From contig NW_004457737.1 in the NCBI RefSeq assembly GCF_000203815.1, positions 2,418,001 to 2,482,000 of the forward strand: a DNA stretch of 64,000 bases, in the 5' to 3' direction. The notes under the pieces were generated by a model. It was not told the origin of the DNA. It was given only the letters and a program-made list of their open reading frames with translations, and did not search any database. Below are positions 1,533 to 16,400 of this stretch, in pieces. Positions within the stretch are counted from its first letter, which is position 1; each line of letters begins with the position of its first letter. The translations under genes and the position numbers were made by a program. The DNA is from Cavenderia fasciculata (Eukaryota; Evosea; Eumycetozoa; Acytosteliales; Cavenderiaceae).

Positions 1533-3692
1533 TAATAATAATAATAATAATTATAGTTTTTTATTTAATAAAATTTAATCAAAAAGATTACTTTTTTAAA
1601 AATTAATTAATTAAATGAATGAATGAATACTATTTTAATAAGTAGGATAGCGGTATATAATAATAATGCTTTTTTGGGGTTACGGAGAACAAATGAAAAA
1701 AATGGGTGGCGATTGGTTGGATGGTCGTTCATGAATACTTGAATCCATTTTTATAAATTAGGACAATGTCTTATATCTATTTCATATCAGATAAATAATA
1801 TCGAGGTTATTATGCAATTCAATTCAATTCAAATAATACCTTTTTATCTAAAAAGGAAACTAGATTATTACTTAATTTAATTAGCAGTTGTTGTTGGACA
1901 TAGGCACTAATATATGTGATTTTCACTCATAAACCTATAAATATCATATATCTCTATTTATATTAGGATAAAGAATAGGGTACCTTTATTCTTCATTAGG
2001 GTAAATGGAATTTGTTACTTGAATCATGAGTAATATTAATATTTATTTATCTTTTGGAAAAAATAAATTTAACGAGTATCAAATCTGTATGGGTTGGTTG
2101 CAGGATAAACAAAAACAAGAATTCCTATTATTATTTTTATTATTAATTTATTTTATCGATATAAGTGTAAATATATCCTGTATATTTGGTTACTACTCAT
2201 CCATCCATTTTGATTGAAAATTACCAAAATCTCAAACAGCGTTGTAGAGTAAATAGTAATTAGATTTAATAATTACCAACAAACAAAACATTAATCTCAT
2301 CACATAATTATCATCATCATCATCATCATCATATTCATCATTTTCCTTTCATTTCTCATCATCAATTCCATAATCATTTAATATATCTTTCAAATTGTAT
2401 GTCCTTTCTATCATATCAAATATAATGATATGGTGGTCTATTCAATTTGATTGGCGACCGGACAATCTATCAATCATCTCAAATTTTTACAAAGCATCTT
2501 ATCTTTTGACATCTCTGAGGGATGATATCATATAATAATCTATATTATTACATCCATATATTATACGATTGTACCAACAATTTATCTCTTTAAAAACAAT
2601 GGGAAACGGACCACCTATAATCAATTGATTTTTTTTAAAAGTAATTATTTATCATCATACATCATAATCATAATAATATGTTGTTGTTTTGATGATTGAT
2701 AGTAAGGGTGGTGGTGGTGGTAGTGTTGGTGGTAGTATTGGTGGAGGTCGGTCGGTCGGTCGTCTACTTGTATGTAGTAGTATTGTCACTAAATCATCCA
2801 AAATAAATTGTTGATTCATTTCATAGTCATTCTTTCCTTTTCAGACAAATTAAATTAAACAAATATAATATTTTTCAAATCACTTAATCCAGACATCATT
2901 TATAATCATCACCATCATATATATTTTAATTCCCCTATTTTTAAAACTATAAAAAATTTTTTTTTTTTAGGAAAACCCCAACAAACCTTCCTTGTTTTCT
3001 TGAAATCTCTTGGAACTAGCATCAAAACTTTAGAATATTAAAATAACTATTTAAATGTTTGTATTTATTATCCAATTCATATGGAGGAGGAGGAGGTTAA
3101 AGTACCACTTAACCCAAAACCCAACGTAAATTCCCCTTTATTTAGTCTTTCCCAAAAACTCAACTGGATCATCAGTATATCCATTTCGAGTATTTGGATT
3201 TAAAAAACAATCTATTGTCAACACCAACAACAAAGTTGGTTTATTTTGTTTTTGGTATTTCCCAAACTGTTTTTATCATTTCTCGAATATATTAATCCCA
3301 AGAGGATAGTCGTGGTGGTGGACAATATATATCTATTATTTGAAAAGATCATTATCATCATTTTCATCATCGTGTGTTGATCTACATTGCCGTTTATCGA
3401 CTGATGCCAACTAAGGAACTGTTAACAACCACCCAACCAACAACCAACCTACCAACCAATCTTTTAATCGTCCAACACTCTTTACACATTCAATTCTTTG
3501 ATTCTTGCAGTTTGAACGATTTTAACTATAGTTGTCAATCTGGATTGTATGTCTGTGTGTGGTTGACAATTAAAACAATATGTCAAACCAAGAGGAAGAG
3601 GAGTTGGTGATGATGTAACAATACCTACCTACCTTCTTACATACCTACATGTCCCGCACCCTCCTTCTTACAATATACACATATATTTTTAT

Positions 3693-3723
<31 letters not shown>

Positions 3724-6268
3724 CCAATCAATCAATTCAACACAGTGTGCTCTCTTGAATATTTCACTCCTTAGACTGTTTGCATTTTATCAGTTTAGTT
3801 TTTGGTGATATTTACAAAAGATTCATCGTATCCTGTTGTATGCATTCACCCCCTGATGATTCTTGTAGAATGTTTCTCACACAAACACACACCATTAATT
3901 AAATTAGTCAATTTCAGATTTCAAATCTAAATGTGTCTTTTTGAGTGAGTGGATGGTTCGAACGGAAAACAACCAATCCTTTGTCGGCACCTATGTCGTA
4001 TAGGCAGTAGTACTACTATACTACAACGCGATTATTGCTTTGGCCAATTCAATTGCATTGTCCACCACCACTACCACTCACCCCTCACCACTCACCACTC
4101 TCAATCTAACCCACCACTATATCATCCCACATATATCAGTCAATCTGCTATCCTGTGCTGCTTATCATAATTCACCCCACTTGGTGGACATATCATGTCT
4201 ATCAGGACAACAACTTGATTTACTGACCTACATTGTGCGAGAGAGAGACTGATGATATTTTTGTTTCGTTTCGTTTCTTTTATTAACCTGTTCCATCAAT
4301 CCGGAAGTGAGTAAGTGTGTGAATGTGTGTGTCTGTGTCTGTGTGTGACATGATGATGATTATTATTATTATTATTCTTGATTTCTTATTATATTAACTG
4401 TAGGGATTGTTGTTGTCTATGTCATTCCTTCTACTTTGCCCAGTTGCATACTCCATTCTTTGACCAACAATTTTACTTACCTACTGCTATTTTTAAATTT
4501 AATCTTGTTCATTTGTGATACATTGCAGAATTTGGAATCACCAACAACTACAACTCCAGTCAGCCAGAAAGCAAGCATTTCCAACAACAACTAAAATAGA
4601 AAAAAAGCAAGAAACTATTTAGAGTCAACTTATTGATCAATTATACCAACAACACTACTAGTAGTACATACCAACACGACGACAGCATCACTAGCAGCAG
4701 AAGTAATAGTAGTAGCAGTAGTATTATATTGCAGCACCAGTAGAGGAAACCTGCTAGTATAAGGGTTGCACTAGTTTGTGTTAACTATATTCATTGACCC
4801 AATTAGGAGTTGCAGTCAGCCATCCAGTCTGCCAGTCTGGTGAACCAAAAGTAAGTTTGTTTAATATACCAACAACCCTCTCCTACTCCTAGCACTCTCT
4901 AAATCTATATTTATATATTTAGAACCGTCATTTAATCGCCACATTTTTTATTTAAATTAATCAATTAATCATTCATTCATTCATTCATTATTGCCTATTA
5001 AATCACAATCACATTTCCAGCCAACCAGCTTCTTCTTTTCCAACATCCAAACATTGATCAATTTTTCAAATTAATTATTGTTATTATTGTCAACATACCA
5101 ACAACATCAAGAATAGTAAAGTTAGTTTTTAGAACAAGCTTGGCAGTTTAGTGTAAGTGTCACTGATCATTTTCATCCTCTGTCAGTTCTGCCATTTTTG
5201 TGTGATTTTCTCCATTTCTCCTCGTTCTCTCTTTCACACCCCCCTCTCATCAGTTTTCATGCTCTATTTTGTTTTTTGTTATTTGATTGTCTTGTTTTGG
5301 GGCCCATCAACCAAGATTTATCTTTAGAGTTTTAATAATTTTAAACACACTGCCAACTTTTTCCCAAATATATCGAGATTGGAACTCGTGTGACTTTGGG
5401 AAAAATATATAGACAGATCCAACGTTTCCAACTTTGCTGGAAAACACTAACAACTGCATTGATTTCAGAAATACACCTTTCCCAAACAACCTTTTCCTGC
5501 GACACCTACCCAACCAGATCCAAATGTGATCAATTCATTCTTCCTCCAACTATAGCACCCCCCATCCCATCCTTTCCTCTTACTTTATTATAATGTTCTC
5601 CTCTCACAATGTTATCATCAGCAGAAGAAGAACAAGAAGGAGAAGCAGCTTTACCATCATCCATCGGATAGCTGCATCATCATCATCATCATCATATTCA
5701 TTGATTTCTTTAAACCAAGTCTCTGCATGACGAGTAGGGTTGCCCACTACATTTATTTTTAATACACCACCACCAGTATCCATTGATCAATGGGATCCTC
5801 TAGATATTTAACACTTGGGGTGTATCATCTGCTTCTGATTGAACACTTCCACTCTTATAAAACCGACAGGTCTATTTTATTCTTTTTATTATCTAATTGT
5901 CGAATTTAACTCCCATCCAACAACAAACTAAACACATTTTATATTAAATCCTCACCCATTTTAACCATTATTGCTATTATCTCATACATCAAGTCCCCAT
6001 TTATCATTTAAATTATTTATACTAGACCCACCACCACCACCACAACCTATTCTACTGTTCTACATAAATACCAATCACATTGTTGAATTTAAAATCACTT
6101 AATTCTTATTGTATTTTAAAATTAATTATTATTATTATTTATTTTATTTATTTATTTATTTATTTTTAGATTTAATCAAAATCTTTTAAAAAAAAAACAA
6201 CTCTCAAAAAAAGTAAATTTACTTTTCAATTCCCCCCTACCCTACTCTACACTTTTTTATTCAAACAA
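1533..6268. other. 4.7 kb gene-free region with simple repeats
   Basis: No convincing gene is present on either strand; the short open frames lack family similarity and coding-like composition. The stretch has CAT runs near 2310-2335, a GGT-rich patch near 2705-2755, a TA run near 3702-3724 and CA/CAAC-rich tracts near 3420-3470 and 4540-4740. A good splice donor (GTAAGT) lies at 4851 after a purine- and CAG-rich stretch. A T-rich acceptor-like site lies near 6170, 100 bases before the methyltransferase ATG. A non-coding first exon with a long leader intron for that gene is possible but would be unusually long for this lineage. Confidence 0.5.
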
Positions 6269-7308
6269 ATGGAAATCATAAATGATAATCAATCCACTCT
6301 GGTAGTTGACAACCAATGTAGTTCGACCCAAGTTACTCCAATAGCCATGGATCATGATGATGACAAGGAAACTCGTTGGATGGCCATCGATAAATCCGAA
6401 TGTCCAAATAAATTTATTCAATATGTAGATGAAGCTTCTAAACAAGATCAAGTATGTATTAAACAAAAAAAAGGAACCAAAAAAAGGATATAAATATTTA
6501 ATTAATTTTTCAATTTAGATTATTGCACATACCAGATATTCAACAAGACAATTACAACTTGAACCAGGAATGAAAGTTATTGATGTTGGATGTGGTGCTG
6601 GAAAAGACTTGAGTAGATTAGAATCTATAGTACAAGGTACCGGTGAAGTATATGGTATGGATATTTCAAGGGAAATGGTTGAATGCGCCAAGAGTAGAAT
6701 GTCCCATCTTCCAAATGTCCAAGTTTTCTGTGGAAATGCAAACTCAATTCCATTTGATGCCAATTATTTCGATGCGTATGTATAAATTAAAAATTAACTA
6801 ATCCCAAAAAAAATATTAATTGGTTTTTTTTTTTATTTATAGTGTAAGATGTGAAAGATTACTTCAACATATTCCACAACCAGATGATGTTATTGCTGAA
6901 ATGGTTAGAATTACAAAGAGAGGTGGTAGAATAGTCATTACTGATATTGATTGGACATCTTCAACCATATCAATTCCAAAACATGTTGAACAAATCAACT
7001 CGATCATCATCAAGGATGTTGTATTCAATGCTCATCCAGCTATCGGTCTCCATCTCAAGGGACGCATGAAGAAGAACCCACAAATCACCGATGTCGATAT
7101 TTTTGCTCAATGTCTCTACACTGACTCTTTGTCAGTGGCTGATGATTTCCTCTGGTTGGGAGAGCGTGGAAAGATGGCCGTCACTCAAGGTCTCATCTCG
7201 GAAGACGAATATATGCAATGGCGTGAAGCTGTCGAGCAGATGGAAGAAGAGGGTAGTTTTGTATTCACTATCAATCTCTTTACTGTCAGTGGTAAAATTG
7301 ACAAATAA
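6269..7308 (+). CDS. Class I SAM-dependent methyltransferase
   Basis: Exons read as join(6269..6451, 6519..6775, 6843..7308), giving 301 residues. Exon 2 carries motif I (VIDVGCGAGKDLSRLE, about residues 75-90) that binds S-adenosylmethionine, then the acidic loop (YGMDISREMVECAK) and the SIPFDANYFDAV motif typical of the Methyltransf_11/25 fold. Exon 3 has the GGRIVITDIDW strand. The C-terminal third is an alpha-helical segment of the kind seen in UbiE-like and small-molecule methyltransferases. Both introns are about 67 bases, start GTATGT and end TTTAG or TATAG, and keep the frame. The substrate cannot be read from the sequence. The gene is preceded by the long gene-free region. Confidence 0.85.
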
Positions 7309-8112
7309 TCCTCCTAGGTTAATTGTACATTCAACATATACATATATGTCTTGTTGCGCAACAAGTCAAATTTCCATTTCCTTTTTTTTTTATATATATT
7401 CATCCTTTAAAATGTTAACCTACTCACTTTTGATAATGTACAAATCTAATCGTCATCATCCCCCATCACCACCACCGCCACTACCACTACCATTTATTTA
7501 TTTATTTATTTAATCGATAAATTTGCTTCCCATTGCAAAAATCATCTTCGCCGTAGCTATTTCCTCTCTCTCTCTTTTGGAGTATCCCCCACCTACTACT
7601 GGAAATAACACGCCACCAATCTGTCGACAGATCGATCCACACCATCCATTCTAAATGCCAACCACAACCAAGTATTTGGATTACAGTTTGGTCTTTGAGA
7701 ATCGTCCCCCAACCAAATGAAGAATTCTCTCTTTCCGTCTCTTATCTCTTTGCTTTATATATATATGTAAAACCACCTATTTTCATATTATTACCATTAC
7801 CCAATTTAATAACCATCACCACCTCCTCCTCCTCCTCCCAACAATAATATGCTTAACTTTTTTATCCACCATTTAAAATATCCTCTATTTTGGATTGATG
7901 GGAAAGTAATCTCCTCCTACACCAATATTGCTTGCTTCTATTCCTCTCAAATATCTATTTATACAAAATTATCCATAAAATAAAAGGACCAATTAGAGAA
8001 TCTGATATGTTTTTTCATTGTGTCTATAAAACTTTTTCTTCTTTTTTTGAATTAAAATAGATACTATTACGGTTGGTTTATTAATAGTAGTAGTCGAGAG
8101 GGTTGTTATTGT
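7309..8112. other. Intergenic region, no gene seen
   Basis: This is the 3' space between the methyltransferase (+) and CBP20 (-), which converge here. It contains pyrimidine-rich and CCA/CTC repeats (for example near 7465-7495 and 7815-7840), and open frames are short and compositionally unlike genes. I see no RNA gene. Confidence 0.5.
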
Positions 8113-8844
8113 TTAATCGTCTTCATCTTCATCCCTTTCTCTAAATCTGCTACTTCTACCTCCACCATTCTAAAATGGAAAAAAAGAACCAATTAATAAT
8201 AAGGATCACAACAATATACAATATATAATATAACATACATCTCTTTGTTTTTTCAAATCATTTCCATCTTCATCATCACGACTTCTTTTACCGATATATT
8301 GTGGCTGACTAACATCCATCTCTGAGTGTTGTTCAATTTCAACCATTTTCTGTTGTTTACCATAACCTCCACGTCCTGGATCATAGTCTGTTCTATATTC
8401 ATCACGTACTTGACCACCACTAGCTCCACGACCGTATTGACGTCCCTCTTTGAAACCGTAATCCCAATCACATCTGATCAATCTTTCGTCGAGTTTGGTA
8501 CCATTAATATATTTTATACAATCTGCTGCATCTTCTTTTGCGTAATATCTAGATTATAACATAACAACAAGGTTAATATTGATTCGTTTCTATCCTAAAT
8601 CTACATACTCTACAAAACAAAATCCACAAGGAGTCTTTTGAAGTCTATCTAAACCCATGATGATTCTTTTAATCTCTCCACACTTTGAAAACAATTCATA
8701 GAGTTGTTCTTCGGTTGTGTAAAACGATAGATATCCAACATAGATGGTAGTTGATACTTCTATAGCCTTTTGAAAGTCGTCATATGTGAAACCTGATTTC
8801 TTATCGAAATACAATGGTTGAGGTGTAATGTATAGTTCTGACAT
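8113..8844 (-). CDS. ncbp2: Nuclear cap-binding protein subunit 2 (CBP20)
   Basis: Exons complement(join(8113..8169, 8239..8548, 8609..8844)), 200 residues. The protein is the small subunit of the nuclear cap-binding complex, which with CBP80 binds the m7G cap of pol II transcripts for splicing, export and decay. The N-terminus has the conserved aromatic cap-stacking region ([21 protein letters not shown]). It is followed by an RRM with RNP2 ([20 protein letters not shown]) and RNP1 ([16 protein letters not shown]), the latter interrupted by intron 1. The [19 protein letters not shown] segment is near-diagnostic for CBP20. The C-terminus is Gly/Arg/Asp-rich. Introns have GTATGT donors. Confidence 0.95.
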
Positions 8845-13419: not shown

Positions 13420-16400
13420 TTAAATAATTTGAACAAAATGACTTTCAGTTCTACCAAAAGTAGATGGAGTGTACATTTCTTCAATCTTTGAAGGTGGACA
13501 AATATAGTTTCCATAACATACTGCAGAGCAATTGTAGGTAAATGCGTATTCACCTGGATAGAGGGTATCGATAAAGATTTCGGCACCCTTGTCTCTGACG
13601 TTGGCATGGTCGTACCAATACTTCTTCCATGGAACTTGGTTGGTTGGCTCCAATCCAGCGGGTAATCTATCAGAGACCACTACAAACGAAGACAATTGGC
13701 GTACTTTGATGGTAAGTTGTACCTTTACCTTGGTACCACTCTTGATTTTGATGTTGTTTTGTGGGTCATAGACAACATCATCCTCTTTACCAAGAGCAAT
13801 GAATTTACGTTCAATGGTGATTCCACGATCGGTAACTGGTTTGTAGATTGGATTGGATGGTCCGTATTGGAAGGCAAGGGTGTGGAACAATGGTCCCTTT
13901 CCTTTCTTTTCGATAATGACATTACCTTGGTTCTTGATAAGAGTCTTCATTGGAATGAATCGACGATAGTTACTTTCGGCAGTCAACTCGGTTGGTGTTG
14001 GATCGGCAGTGCTATCATTGATAAAGATATTGGTCTTGATTTTGGATTCCAACAATTTCGAAGTTTCACAGTATCTATAGATGGCGTACAAACTAAAGGC
14101 ATTGTCTTGAGTATTGTACCATCCTCTTGTTCTTCTCATTGATTCCAATCCACTGATCAACTTTGGTACCAAATGATAGTTTGGATTGATGGCAAGCATC
14201 GACAAGATGAGGAACGCAGTACTTCTGGTTTCAGAATAGAATCTGTTGCAATCAACACTATCCAAATATGCCAAACTACCTGTAATCTTGATATGATCTT
14301 CAATCTCTCTTGTTACTTTACTAGAAGTTAAAATTGGCATCAAGAATACAAACTAAAATGAATGAATCAAAAATAAATAAATATTTTTAGTATAAAGTGT
14401 TCCAAATTTGGAATTGATTTGTGTTGGTTCGGGTTTACTTACGAATGACATGAATTTTGAAGGATCTGGATAAAGGTTCATACCCTTGTTGTAAAGTTGA
14501 TTGGCAAAGACAGTTACATTTTGAGCGCTTTTGTGGGCCAAGTAAGCAGCAAATGACTTGCAAATAAAGTAACTGATTCCTTCCTCTTTCATTTTCTTTT
14601 CATTAAAGGTAAGCAAAGATTTAACATAGGTTGCAAAGTTTTTCAATAAACTGGCAGGTACAGTTGCTCCCATTGATTTAAGTGTTGTCAATACCCAATA
14701 AGCATATAAATTAACATATTCATAGGACCTAAAAAAAAATAATATAAAATAAATTAATAAATAAATAAAACAAAGTTGGTTGATTTTTACTGGTTTTACT
14801 TACTTTGGACCATCCCAATATGAAAATACACCATCGCTCTTTAATCTCTTGTCTAAAAGGATAAACATTTCACGCAAGGATTCATCAATCTTTTCATCTG
14901 ATGGGATTGACTTGTCACCTTTTTGGAAGAGTTGTGGAACCTTTTTCAAGACGTAGAGTGATAACATCTTGCTACATAATTGTTCAGTGCATGCGTATTC
15001 ATAGTTTAATAAATATTCAATAGCTGGGGTGATCTTTGAAAGGTTGTTGGATGACATTTGGATTGTCAAACCTCCACTTTCTTGATCTAATTGTTCCCAA
15101 TTTGGAATATTCAGTGGGTATTGGGCAACATCCTTCTCCTTGGTAAGGATATGAGAGATAAGAGTAGACTCAAGACTGGTAGCAGAGTAGACTGGGAAGT
15201 CAAATTTGACGGCATCAGTAAATTCAGCCTTGACACCATGACTGTTGACTCTGCTACTTAGAATGGCTTGGAAGGAAGAGTTGGTATTTGGTACGATTGA
15301 TTTCACATTGCAAGGTACAACGATTCTTGATTGTGCTGGGATAACAGATTTGAATCCCTTGCTTGCAAGTGAACAGTTGTTTGATCTAAATGCAATACTA
15401 ACCTCGACGTCATAGTCGACAATGTTTTGAACGACAATTGGGAATATCGACTCGTCCATGTAATGGAGGAATCGTGGTGGAGATTGACGGATCATAACTG
15501 GAAGAGTACTGGTAAAGAACTCTTGGGTCTTACCAAACTTGTCGTTTGTCATTGCCAACGCCATCATACGGTACTTGGTCAAATTGTCTGGCAATACGTA
15601 TTTGAATCGTGCCACACCCTTTTCATCGGTATGCACGTTGGTTTCAAAAGTTGCTCTTGGACAGAAATTGTCTCTGACCTTGATCACCTTGGCAGCCAAC
15701 ATAAGATCTTCGCAATCGCTCTTTTCGTCGTCATCAGACCCACCAAACAATCTAAATACGAGGTTGATTGTAGTGTCAGTGGTGATCTTGTTTGACTCGA
15801 GTGTACCAGATTCCATTTGTTTGTTCAAGTGGAACAGACGTTGAGAAGAAGGTGGTAATCCATCACGATCCTGAACGACCTTTTGGATGTGTTCAATGGT
15901 GGTGCTAATTGGAATACCATCAAGACGAATGATACGACCTGAAAAGTAACGAATAGTGAGGTTGATGGATGAAGTAGGAACGGATGATGTTTTAACCACT
16001 TCGGTTGGCATTGAATATTGTGAGCATTCAGTGAGATAGAATGGTTGTAAATATTCATTGTTTCTAGTTGGATAGAAATTGATTGGATTCCAGTCATTGG
16101 CAGTTCTCTTGGACAATTGCAACAATGATTCGTCGGCAACAATCAAAGTGACCTCTGCATTTGGTACTGGCTTGCCATTGTGGTCCTTGACAATGACACC
16201 TACATTGTGGGTCTCTTTGGGAGTGGCAAACTTGGAGAATGGCTCAAATTCCACTGTCAATGTCTTGGTTTTTCTAGACACTGTAATGGTCTTTTCAACA
16301 TAACCATCGGTGAAACGTTGATGAGTTTTGTCCATATACTCAAATGACAGTACACCTTGGACAATACAACCAAACTTGACGGTTGGGAAATCCCTTTCAG

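Follow-up and report, generated by a model that had tools for sequence, protein, structure and literature searches.

What is a complete ubiquitin-like domain (Ubl) doing in the middle of an alpha-2-macroglobulin (A2M)? The question is raised by a gene of Cavenderia fasciculata that lies in a 64,000-nucleotide stretch of contig NW_004457737.1 (positions 2,418,001 to 2,482,000 of the forward strand; the window), in which an earlier note, made from the letters alone, had pointed to a 76-residue ubiquitin-like segment buried in an A2M chain and had suggested that it may serve as bait. The answer that we favour, tentatively and with less than even confidence, is that the protein is a bacterial-type A2M, probably cytosolic, in which the Ubl would act as the bait, so that a cut after its L-x-G-G end by a ubiquitin-type protease would spring a thioester trap.

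The segment is read from the minus strand, as stops interrupt the other one, and our splice model places it in a gene of five exons (20474-18900, 18829-18456, 18373-14804, 14728-14443, and 14352-13420) separated by four GT-AG introns of 70, 82, 75, and 90 nt. The modelled protein of 2245 aa is identical, letter for letter, to a public C. fasciculata protein (P0001) recorded as "ubiquitin domain-containing protein", and residues 1453-1528, which make up the segment, lie entirely within one long exon. Pfam matches over the cut-off were obtained for MG2 (PF01835), A2M (PF00207), bacterial MG10 (PF17973), ubiquitin (PF00240), and Rad60-SLD, with the A2M_BRD model barely over its own (22.9 vs 22.7). 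By sequence, the protein has the marks of the A2M superfamily, namely an array of macroglobulin (MG) domains with the A2M core, a CXEQ motif, and a bait slot followed by a plug R..F. When a 92-aa piece carrying the segment was taken alone, it matched positions 1-71 of the 72 in the PF00240 profile (E=3.6e-8, 33.5 bits vs a cut-off of 25.4). It scored 137 in local alignment to ubiquitin, where 2000 shuffles averaged 24 (sd 4.3) and reached at most 42, and a Ubl profile built from eight orthologs, in which the domain is 30-40% identical to ubiquitin, matched the single-copy ubiquitin chains of the PDB at E about 1e-19 to 1e-18. The claim that the segment is ubiquitin-like over its full length was thus borne out, and Pfam and the alignments also agree with the earlier note in placing it between the upstream MG domains and the VRDNF block, with CTEQ intact downstream. 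There is no cysteine within residues 1453-1528, such as a complement anaphylatoxin would have, and no Pfam match to a domain other than ubiquitin, permuted Ras included, was found in the slot of the window protein. That the arrangement is an artefact of chance similarity, mis-splicing, or assembly error has a negligible probability, being refuted by the conservation in ten records described below and ruled out also by the shuffles, the identical public record, and the single exon.

Orthologs were collected from two protein searches, which returned 96 hits (8 with PF00240) and 94 hits (9 with PF00240). The same fusion, which the earlier note had proposed to look for in other dictyostelids, was found in ten protein records (the Ubl-A2Ms), with the Ubl at the same place in all. 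Six species, all dictyostelid, are represented (C. fasciculata, Heterostelium album, Acytostelium subglobosum, Dictyostelium citrinum, D. purpureum, and Polysphondylium violaceum), the remaining four records being P0002, P0005, P0006, and P0007; within the length and word limits of the searches, none was recognised outside the dictyostelids among the 96 and 94 hits. The internal Ubl ends in R-L-[FSHY]-G-G in 10/10 orthologs, which places a diglycine at the end of the domain but in the interior of the chain, and the thioester motif reads C-[ST]-E-Q in every one (CTEQ in the window protein). Among eight orthologs the mean pairwise identity was 53% in the Ubl, 36% over the whole protein, 21% in the linker on its N side, and 24% in the linker on its C side; the invariant residues numbered 18/76, 214/2245, 1/34, and 0/19, respectively, and with all ten orthologs 17/76, 178/2245, 0/34, and 0/19. 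Residues 72-76 of ubiquitin form a flexible arm, and the corresponding tail of the Ubl is invariant at four of its five positions, as against 13 of the other 71 (one-sided Fisher p=0.008, ten orthologs). As position 74 varies inside this otherwise invariant tail, the pattern reads as L-x-G-G. The residue right after the diglycine is S, G, A, or T in all ten. The coronavirus protease PLpro, whose substrates include ubiquitin conjugates, is reported to recognise L-x-G-G and to tolerate an acidic residue directly after the second Gly poorly (PMC10126577).

The place of the Ubl in the A2M chain was read from an alignment to the A2M of E. coli (ECAM), with which the eight-ortholog profile is collinear (HHalign probability 99.1, E 4.7e-19, 1162 columns). 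Per-column confidence was mostly high at ECAM ~860-919 and from ~976 onwards and near zero in between; it was also low over much of the upstream MG region (ECAM ~470-750). The 919-976 gap contains the bait of ECAM (R923-L942) as well as F947-N963, a segment that binds the C-terminal domain once the bait is cut (PMC4498604), and the Ubl falls in the matching gap of the window protein (residues 1419-1548), inside which no residue-to-residue matching to ECAM is possible. By this alignment the Ubl fills the A2M bait slot, directly ahead of the conserved plug R..F. In the plug, V-R-x-N-F, the R, N, and F are invariant in 10/10 orthologs, and R-x-x-F is found in bacterial relatives as well. The plug lies in the MG-ring channel in human A2M (R732, F735) and A2ML1 (R730, F733), and its retraction upon bait cleavage is the trigger proposed there (PMC9352918, PMC9156758); the human plug was matched to V-R-D-N-F through motif and position, not through a computed alignment to human A2M. 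The distance from the diglycine to the plug is 18-23 residues in the ten orthologs, and the sequence of this linker is unconserved. The slots of the ten Ubl-A2Ms measure 129-142 aa, those of relatives that carry a circularly permuted Ras domain (cpRAS-A2Ms) 340-449 aa, and those of 90 other proteins a median of 78 aa (range 26-713). Two bacterial-type A2Ms, P0063 and P0072, have long slots that by eye resemble Plug/TonB-plug or carboxypeptidase-regulatory domains, for which both proteins also have Pfam hits. The idea that the Ubl is bait thus gains from its slot position relative to the E. coli bait and from a plug motif 18-23 residues on; as to function it stays a proposal. The bait of a bacterial A2M can be exchanged, as an E. 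coli A2M with a swapped bait captures the cognate protease (PMC9918453). The architecture, the slot, and the conservation of the diglycine, the plug, and the thioester motif can all be read directly from the sequences.

Where would such a protein work? A second Ubl, missing from the earlier note, lies at the N-terminus of the chain, where it is split by an Asn/Gln-rich insert; in 10/10 orthologs it is without a diglycine, unlike the internal Ubl of the same proteins. It is conserved among the orthologs (the first half is absent in P0002) and is a possible docking module. An N-terminal Ubl is of the kind used for proteasome docking. The presence of a signal was checked as the maximum 12-residue mean Kyte-Doolittle hydropathy within the first 45 residues. 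No signal-like N-terminal segment was seen in the ten Ubl-A2Ms (0.42-1.21, including P0005, whose N-terminus is kinase-like), and four cpRAS-A2Ms gave 0.01-0.34; for comparison, ECAM reached 2.39 and a paralog from the same genome (L006) 3.26. These values, which measure hydropathy and are not a signal-peptide prediction, suggest that the Ubl-A2Ms are cytosolic. P0005 (EukProt gene679-840_t) is an ortholog with an N-terminal protein kinase domain and may be a fused gene model.

From these features we infer a scheme of which the cytosolic location, the fold, the stopper role, the class of protease, and the trapping step all remain conditional. The plug V-R-x-N-F behind the Ubl would be held in the MG-ring channel, as in human A2M and C3, and the Ubl would act as a stopper: a cut on its N side would leave a bulky domain on the plug strand and, as the Ubl would be too bulky to follow the plug, should not free it. 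A cut on the C side would free the plug, the working stretch being only the 17-22-residue linker after L-x-G-G, and the best place for it would be right after the invariant L-x-G-G. The plug would then retract, the molecule would change shape, and the CTEQ thioester would bond to the cutting protease. If only cuts in the C-side linker work, the trap would answer best to ubiquitin-type proteases; the trigger would be a deubiquitinase or Ubl protease that belongs to the cell itself or, should the Ubl be an integrated decoy, to a pathogen living inside the cell. Depletion of lysines in the Ubl, as a guard from self-capture, was also considered and was dropped as unconvincing by eye.

The same slot has received another domain in a paralog. 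Three loci of the genome hold an A2M core domain, and one of them, missing from the earlier note (L003; G000:C21:1268601-1271855, locus positions 1-2637), carries a Ras domain there, permuted to the order G3-G4-G5-G1-G2 (Pfam Ras 3.9e-51), and has lost the thioester (RTEN). Protein searches gave four further cpRAS-A2Ms (P0024, P0028, P0097, and P0098). The GTPase motifs are kept in 3/4 of these and in L003, and the switch I sequence DEYDPTIEDSY stands at the end of the Ras domain in L003, P0028, P0097, and P0098, not in P0024. The latter, from Tieghemostelium lacteum, carries a decayed GTPase, neither the G3 nor the switch I motif having been seen in the slot. The third locus (L006; G000:C12:342000-351900, 2240-8794 minus) encodes an A2M-like protein with a strongly hydrophobic, signal-like N-terminus; no Pfam domain was found in its slot and no C-x-E-Q within its 1265-aa open reading frame (ORF), and it is likely a secreted relative with an ordinary slot. 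In the tree, the Ubl-A2M and cpRAS-A2M clades each received a support of 100, and a joint clade of the two was neither supported nor rejected (p-AU 0.347, 23 of 53 rows). The cpRAS-A2M was first described in 2008 from D. discoideum, as an insertion into a COG2373/A2M-like protein; its authors report having deleted a speculation on pathogen defence, and in the part of the paper drawn on here a bait role is not mentioned (PMC2430557). As permuted Ras also occurs outside A2M (PMC2430557), the permutation did not arise for a bait purpose.

Conceivably, none of these proteins traps anything, and the Ubl and cpRAS are ordinary interaction modules mounted on the A2M frame of an intracellular scaffold or signalling protein. 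Paralogs that lack the thioester and yet keep GTPase motifs (three of the four listed and the own-genome copy) fit this view, and Dictyostelium has a cytosolic protein that forms a hollow cage and contains A2M-like domains (CAGE, PMC12485934). We nevertheless consider it quite improbable, since a thioester motif and plug present in 10/10 Ubl-A2Ms would be hard to explain without the A2M reaction. A wider reading that takes in both families, and that we regard as doubtful, is that dictyostelids possess an intracellular branch of complement/A2M whose baits are folded copies of host signalling proteins (the L-x-G-G tail of ubiquitin; Ras, with switch I at an exposed C-terminal end). Such baits would be decoys for site-specific effector proteases of intracellular bacteria, and the folded bait would also be the stopper. 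Legionella infects amoebae, and some of its known effectors are deubiquitinases. A bacterial endopeptidase family is reported to cleave switch I of Ras between Y32 and D33 (PMC4468845). That two presumably intracellular A2Ms have baits drawn from two known protease targets is suggestive, and no more.

Several results weigh against a trap sprung by ubiquitin-type cleavage, beginning with the diglycine itself. In an own-genome control, 18 of 37 PF00240 matches were read, of which nine were non-ubiquitin with a readable end (the N-terminal Ubl of the same protein included); a diglycine ended two of these nine integral Ubls (L031 and L034) and was absent in seven. Among 175 other A2M slots, 115 have a diglycine within the last 30 residues. 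The diglycine was accordingly rejected as a unique mark, and near the plug it may serve the A2M machine, not a ubiquitin protease. Of the ubiquitin residues themselves, I44 is replaced by Phe or Leu in 8/8 Ubls and R74 is retained in 0/10 orthologs, changes that may dampen recognition by host deubiquitinases. The RDDR motif of ECAM has become R-[DE]-x-G in 10/10 orthologs, the last Arg being Gly, and EXMY, which is EEMY in the window protein, is found as E-x-M-Y in 7/10 (not in P0002, P0006, and P0104), so the release step must differ from that of E. coli. In the cpRAS-A2Ms the thioester Cys is absent in 4/4, so covalent trapping is not shared with these paralogs. Some bacterial slots seem to hold domains too, and thus a domain in the slot need not be a decoy. 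Longer baits lower the amount of native human A2M (PMC9352918).

The commonness of the diglycine (115/175) would suit a cytosolic trap for proteases in general, with the Ubl as a mere stopper or spacer, the linker that follows it as the bait proper for any protease, and the diglycine as a feature of A2M slots. In favour of this account, the linker is held at 17-22 aa without conservation of sequence, the slots of the 90 other proteins look mostly unstructured, and ECAM, too, has a diglycine followed by acidic residues past its bait, within the stretch bound by the C-terminal domain. We consider this account rather unlikely. A mere spacer need not retain a ubiquitin-like surface and an R-L-x-G-G tail, which is present in 10/10 orthologs and nowhere in the other slots (0/175); L-x-G-G within the last 30 slot residues occurs in 10/175. 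Among near relatives only 7/20 have a diglycine near the slot end, and in the 175 other slots it mostly lies 8-11 residues ahead of the plug, vs 17-22 in the Ubl-A2Ms. The diglycines of the wider set are mostly Gly-rich runs, common in distant bacterial A2Ms. Since the diglycine alone is not unique, the case for ubiquitin-type cleavage rests on R-L-x-G-G and on how the internal Ubl differs here from the N-terminal one. As judged from these comparisons, a diglycine near the plug is unremarkable by itself, and what is special is the whole ubiquitin-type tail.

The Ubl could also be the output of the trap in place of its trigger. Cleavage by any protease would then expose or free a module ending in a diglycine for ubiquitin-binding, autophagy, or proteasome factors and mark the complex for disposal, as C3a is freed in complement. 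The ubiquitin patch is indeed partly kept, with R42, K48, L69, R72, and L73 invariant in the Ubls of eight orthologs; the N-terminal Ubl is conserved, and complement has a folded domain in this very slot (PMC9156758). The change at I44 speaks against such an output, and a single cut would leave the Ubl attached to the N-terminal half; no second processing site comparable to the furin site of complement was noticed, no search having been made for one. We rate this possibility as unlikely, yet as a serious contender.

Among the papers listed in searches of open-licence literature on Dictyostelium macroglobulins and ubiquitin-like baits, no description of a Ubl bait in an A2M was seen. The earlier statement that no such A2M had been described therefore holds as far as the literature account goes, and needs amending in that the public record already bears a ubiquitin-domain name and the sister arrangement with cpRAS was published in 2008 (PMC2430557). 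A2M and complement are textbook extracellular defences, and an A2M without a signal, with its thioester motif intact and with a Ubl bait would, if the favoured reading is true, move the trap into the cytosol. The trap would also gain a specific trigger, a deubiquitination-type cleavage, much as C3 has its convertase; the anaphylatoxin would be joined by another naturally occurring folded domain that stands in for the bait, and the cpRAS-A2M would be explained as a sister design. D. discoideum would then offer a genetically tractable test of decoy baits versus protease effectors in an ancient cell. As a side observation, three A2Ms of ~2535 aa from metagenome-type sources (P0153, P0168, and P0188) have protein-kinase Pfam hits. 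The features of the locus are collected in Table 1.

Table 1. Features of the Ubl-A2M gene of C. fasciculata, in window positions (res, residues of the 2245-aa protein).
Feature	Positions	Strand	Evidence
Whole gene, ATG to stop, 5 exons; bacterial-type alpha-2-macroglobulin, 2245 aa	13420..20474	-	Splice model, identity with P0001, Pfam
N-terminal ubiquitin-like domain, res 1-137, with Asn/Gln-rich insert, without diglycine and without hydrophobic signal segment	20064..20474	-	PF00240 1.6e-10, hydropathy, alignments
Bait slot, res 1419-1548, 130 aa, between two halves of the MG domain aligning to ECAM MG8	15679..16068	-	ECAM alignment, slot lengths
Internal ubiquitin-like domain, res 1453-1528	15739..15966	-	Pfam, shuffles, profile match, ortholog alignments
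L-F-G-G end of internal Ubl; proposed scissile site directly after it (putative cleavage)	15739..15750	-	L-x-G-G in 10/10 orthologs
Linker from Ubl to plug, acidic in window protein; 17-22 residues in 10 orthologs, 0 invariant	15679..15738	-	Ortholog alignment
V-R-D-N-F, res 1549-1553, counterpart of the A2M/C3 alpha'NT plug R..F	15664..15678	-	R, N, F invariant in 10/10; plug from PMC9352918, PMC9156758
A2M domain PF00207, res 1559-1644	15391..15648	-	Pfam E=4.6e-10
Thioester motif C-T-E-Q, res 1778-1781	14980..14991	-	Motif in sequence, alignments
Bacterial A2M C-terminal MG10 domain PF17973, res 2112-2231, with EEMY motif	13465..13824	-	Pfam, alignments

Among known systems, complement has the anaphylatoxin in the place of the bait, so that C3, C4, and C5 are the first proteins to set beside the Ubl-A2M. 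The anaphylatoxin is a disulphide-rich helical domain, and the slot domain of the Ubl-A2M, being Cys-free and ubiquitin-like, is unlike it. What the two share is a folded domain in place of the bait, immediately ahead of the plug (PMC9156758), and a specific cut between domain and plug as the trigger, which for the Ubl-A2M is proposed; complement is secreted and vertebrate, whereas the Ubl is flanked by A2M of the bacterial type, with no furin site known. With the bacterial A2Ms (E. coli YfhM/ECAM; COG2373) it shares the collinear MG domains, the CXEQ thioester, and the C-terminal MG10; it differs from ECAM, which is a periplasmic lipoprotein with a disordered bait (PMC4498604), and in having lost the last Arg of RDDR. 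The CAGE complex (AbpF) of Dictyostelium is cytosolic, has A2M-like beta domains, and has been proposed as a possible protease trap, but is a different protein, and the words 'ubiquitin' and 'thioester' are absent from the text that describes it (PMC12485934). A like idea underlies the integrated decoys of plant NLRs, immune proteins that carry a copy of what a pathogen targets (PMC4759884); the protein family and the mechanism are different ones, and the decoy role of the Ubl-A2M is a proposal. Another known system is the DdiCPRas2-type cpRAS A2M, also a dictyostelid COG2373-like protein with an inserted eukaryotic signalling domain (Elias and Novotny, 2008; PMC2430557). By the alignment of four relatives, DdiCPRas2 itself not included, the inserted domain falls in the same bait slot; it is a circularly permuted Ras, and the thioester is lost in the four relatives and in L003. 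In the ubiquitin fusions (poly-ubiquitin, Ub-S27a, and Ub-L40), a diglycine precedes an in-frame extension and is cut by a ubiquitin protease. The Ubl-A2M has the same layout, a domain of ubiquitin fold, as predicted from its sequence, that ends in a diglycine ahead of an in-frame extension, but places it mid-chain, at an identity to ubiquitin of 30-40% (eight orthologs) and with R74 lost.

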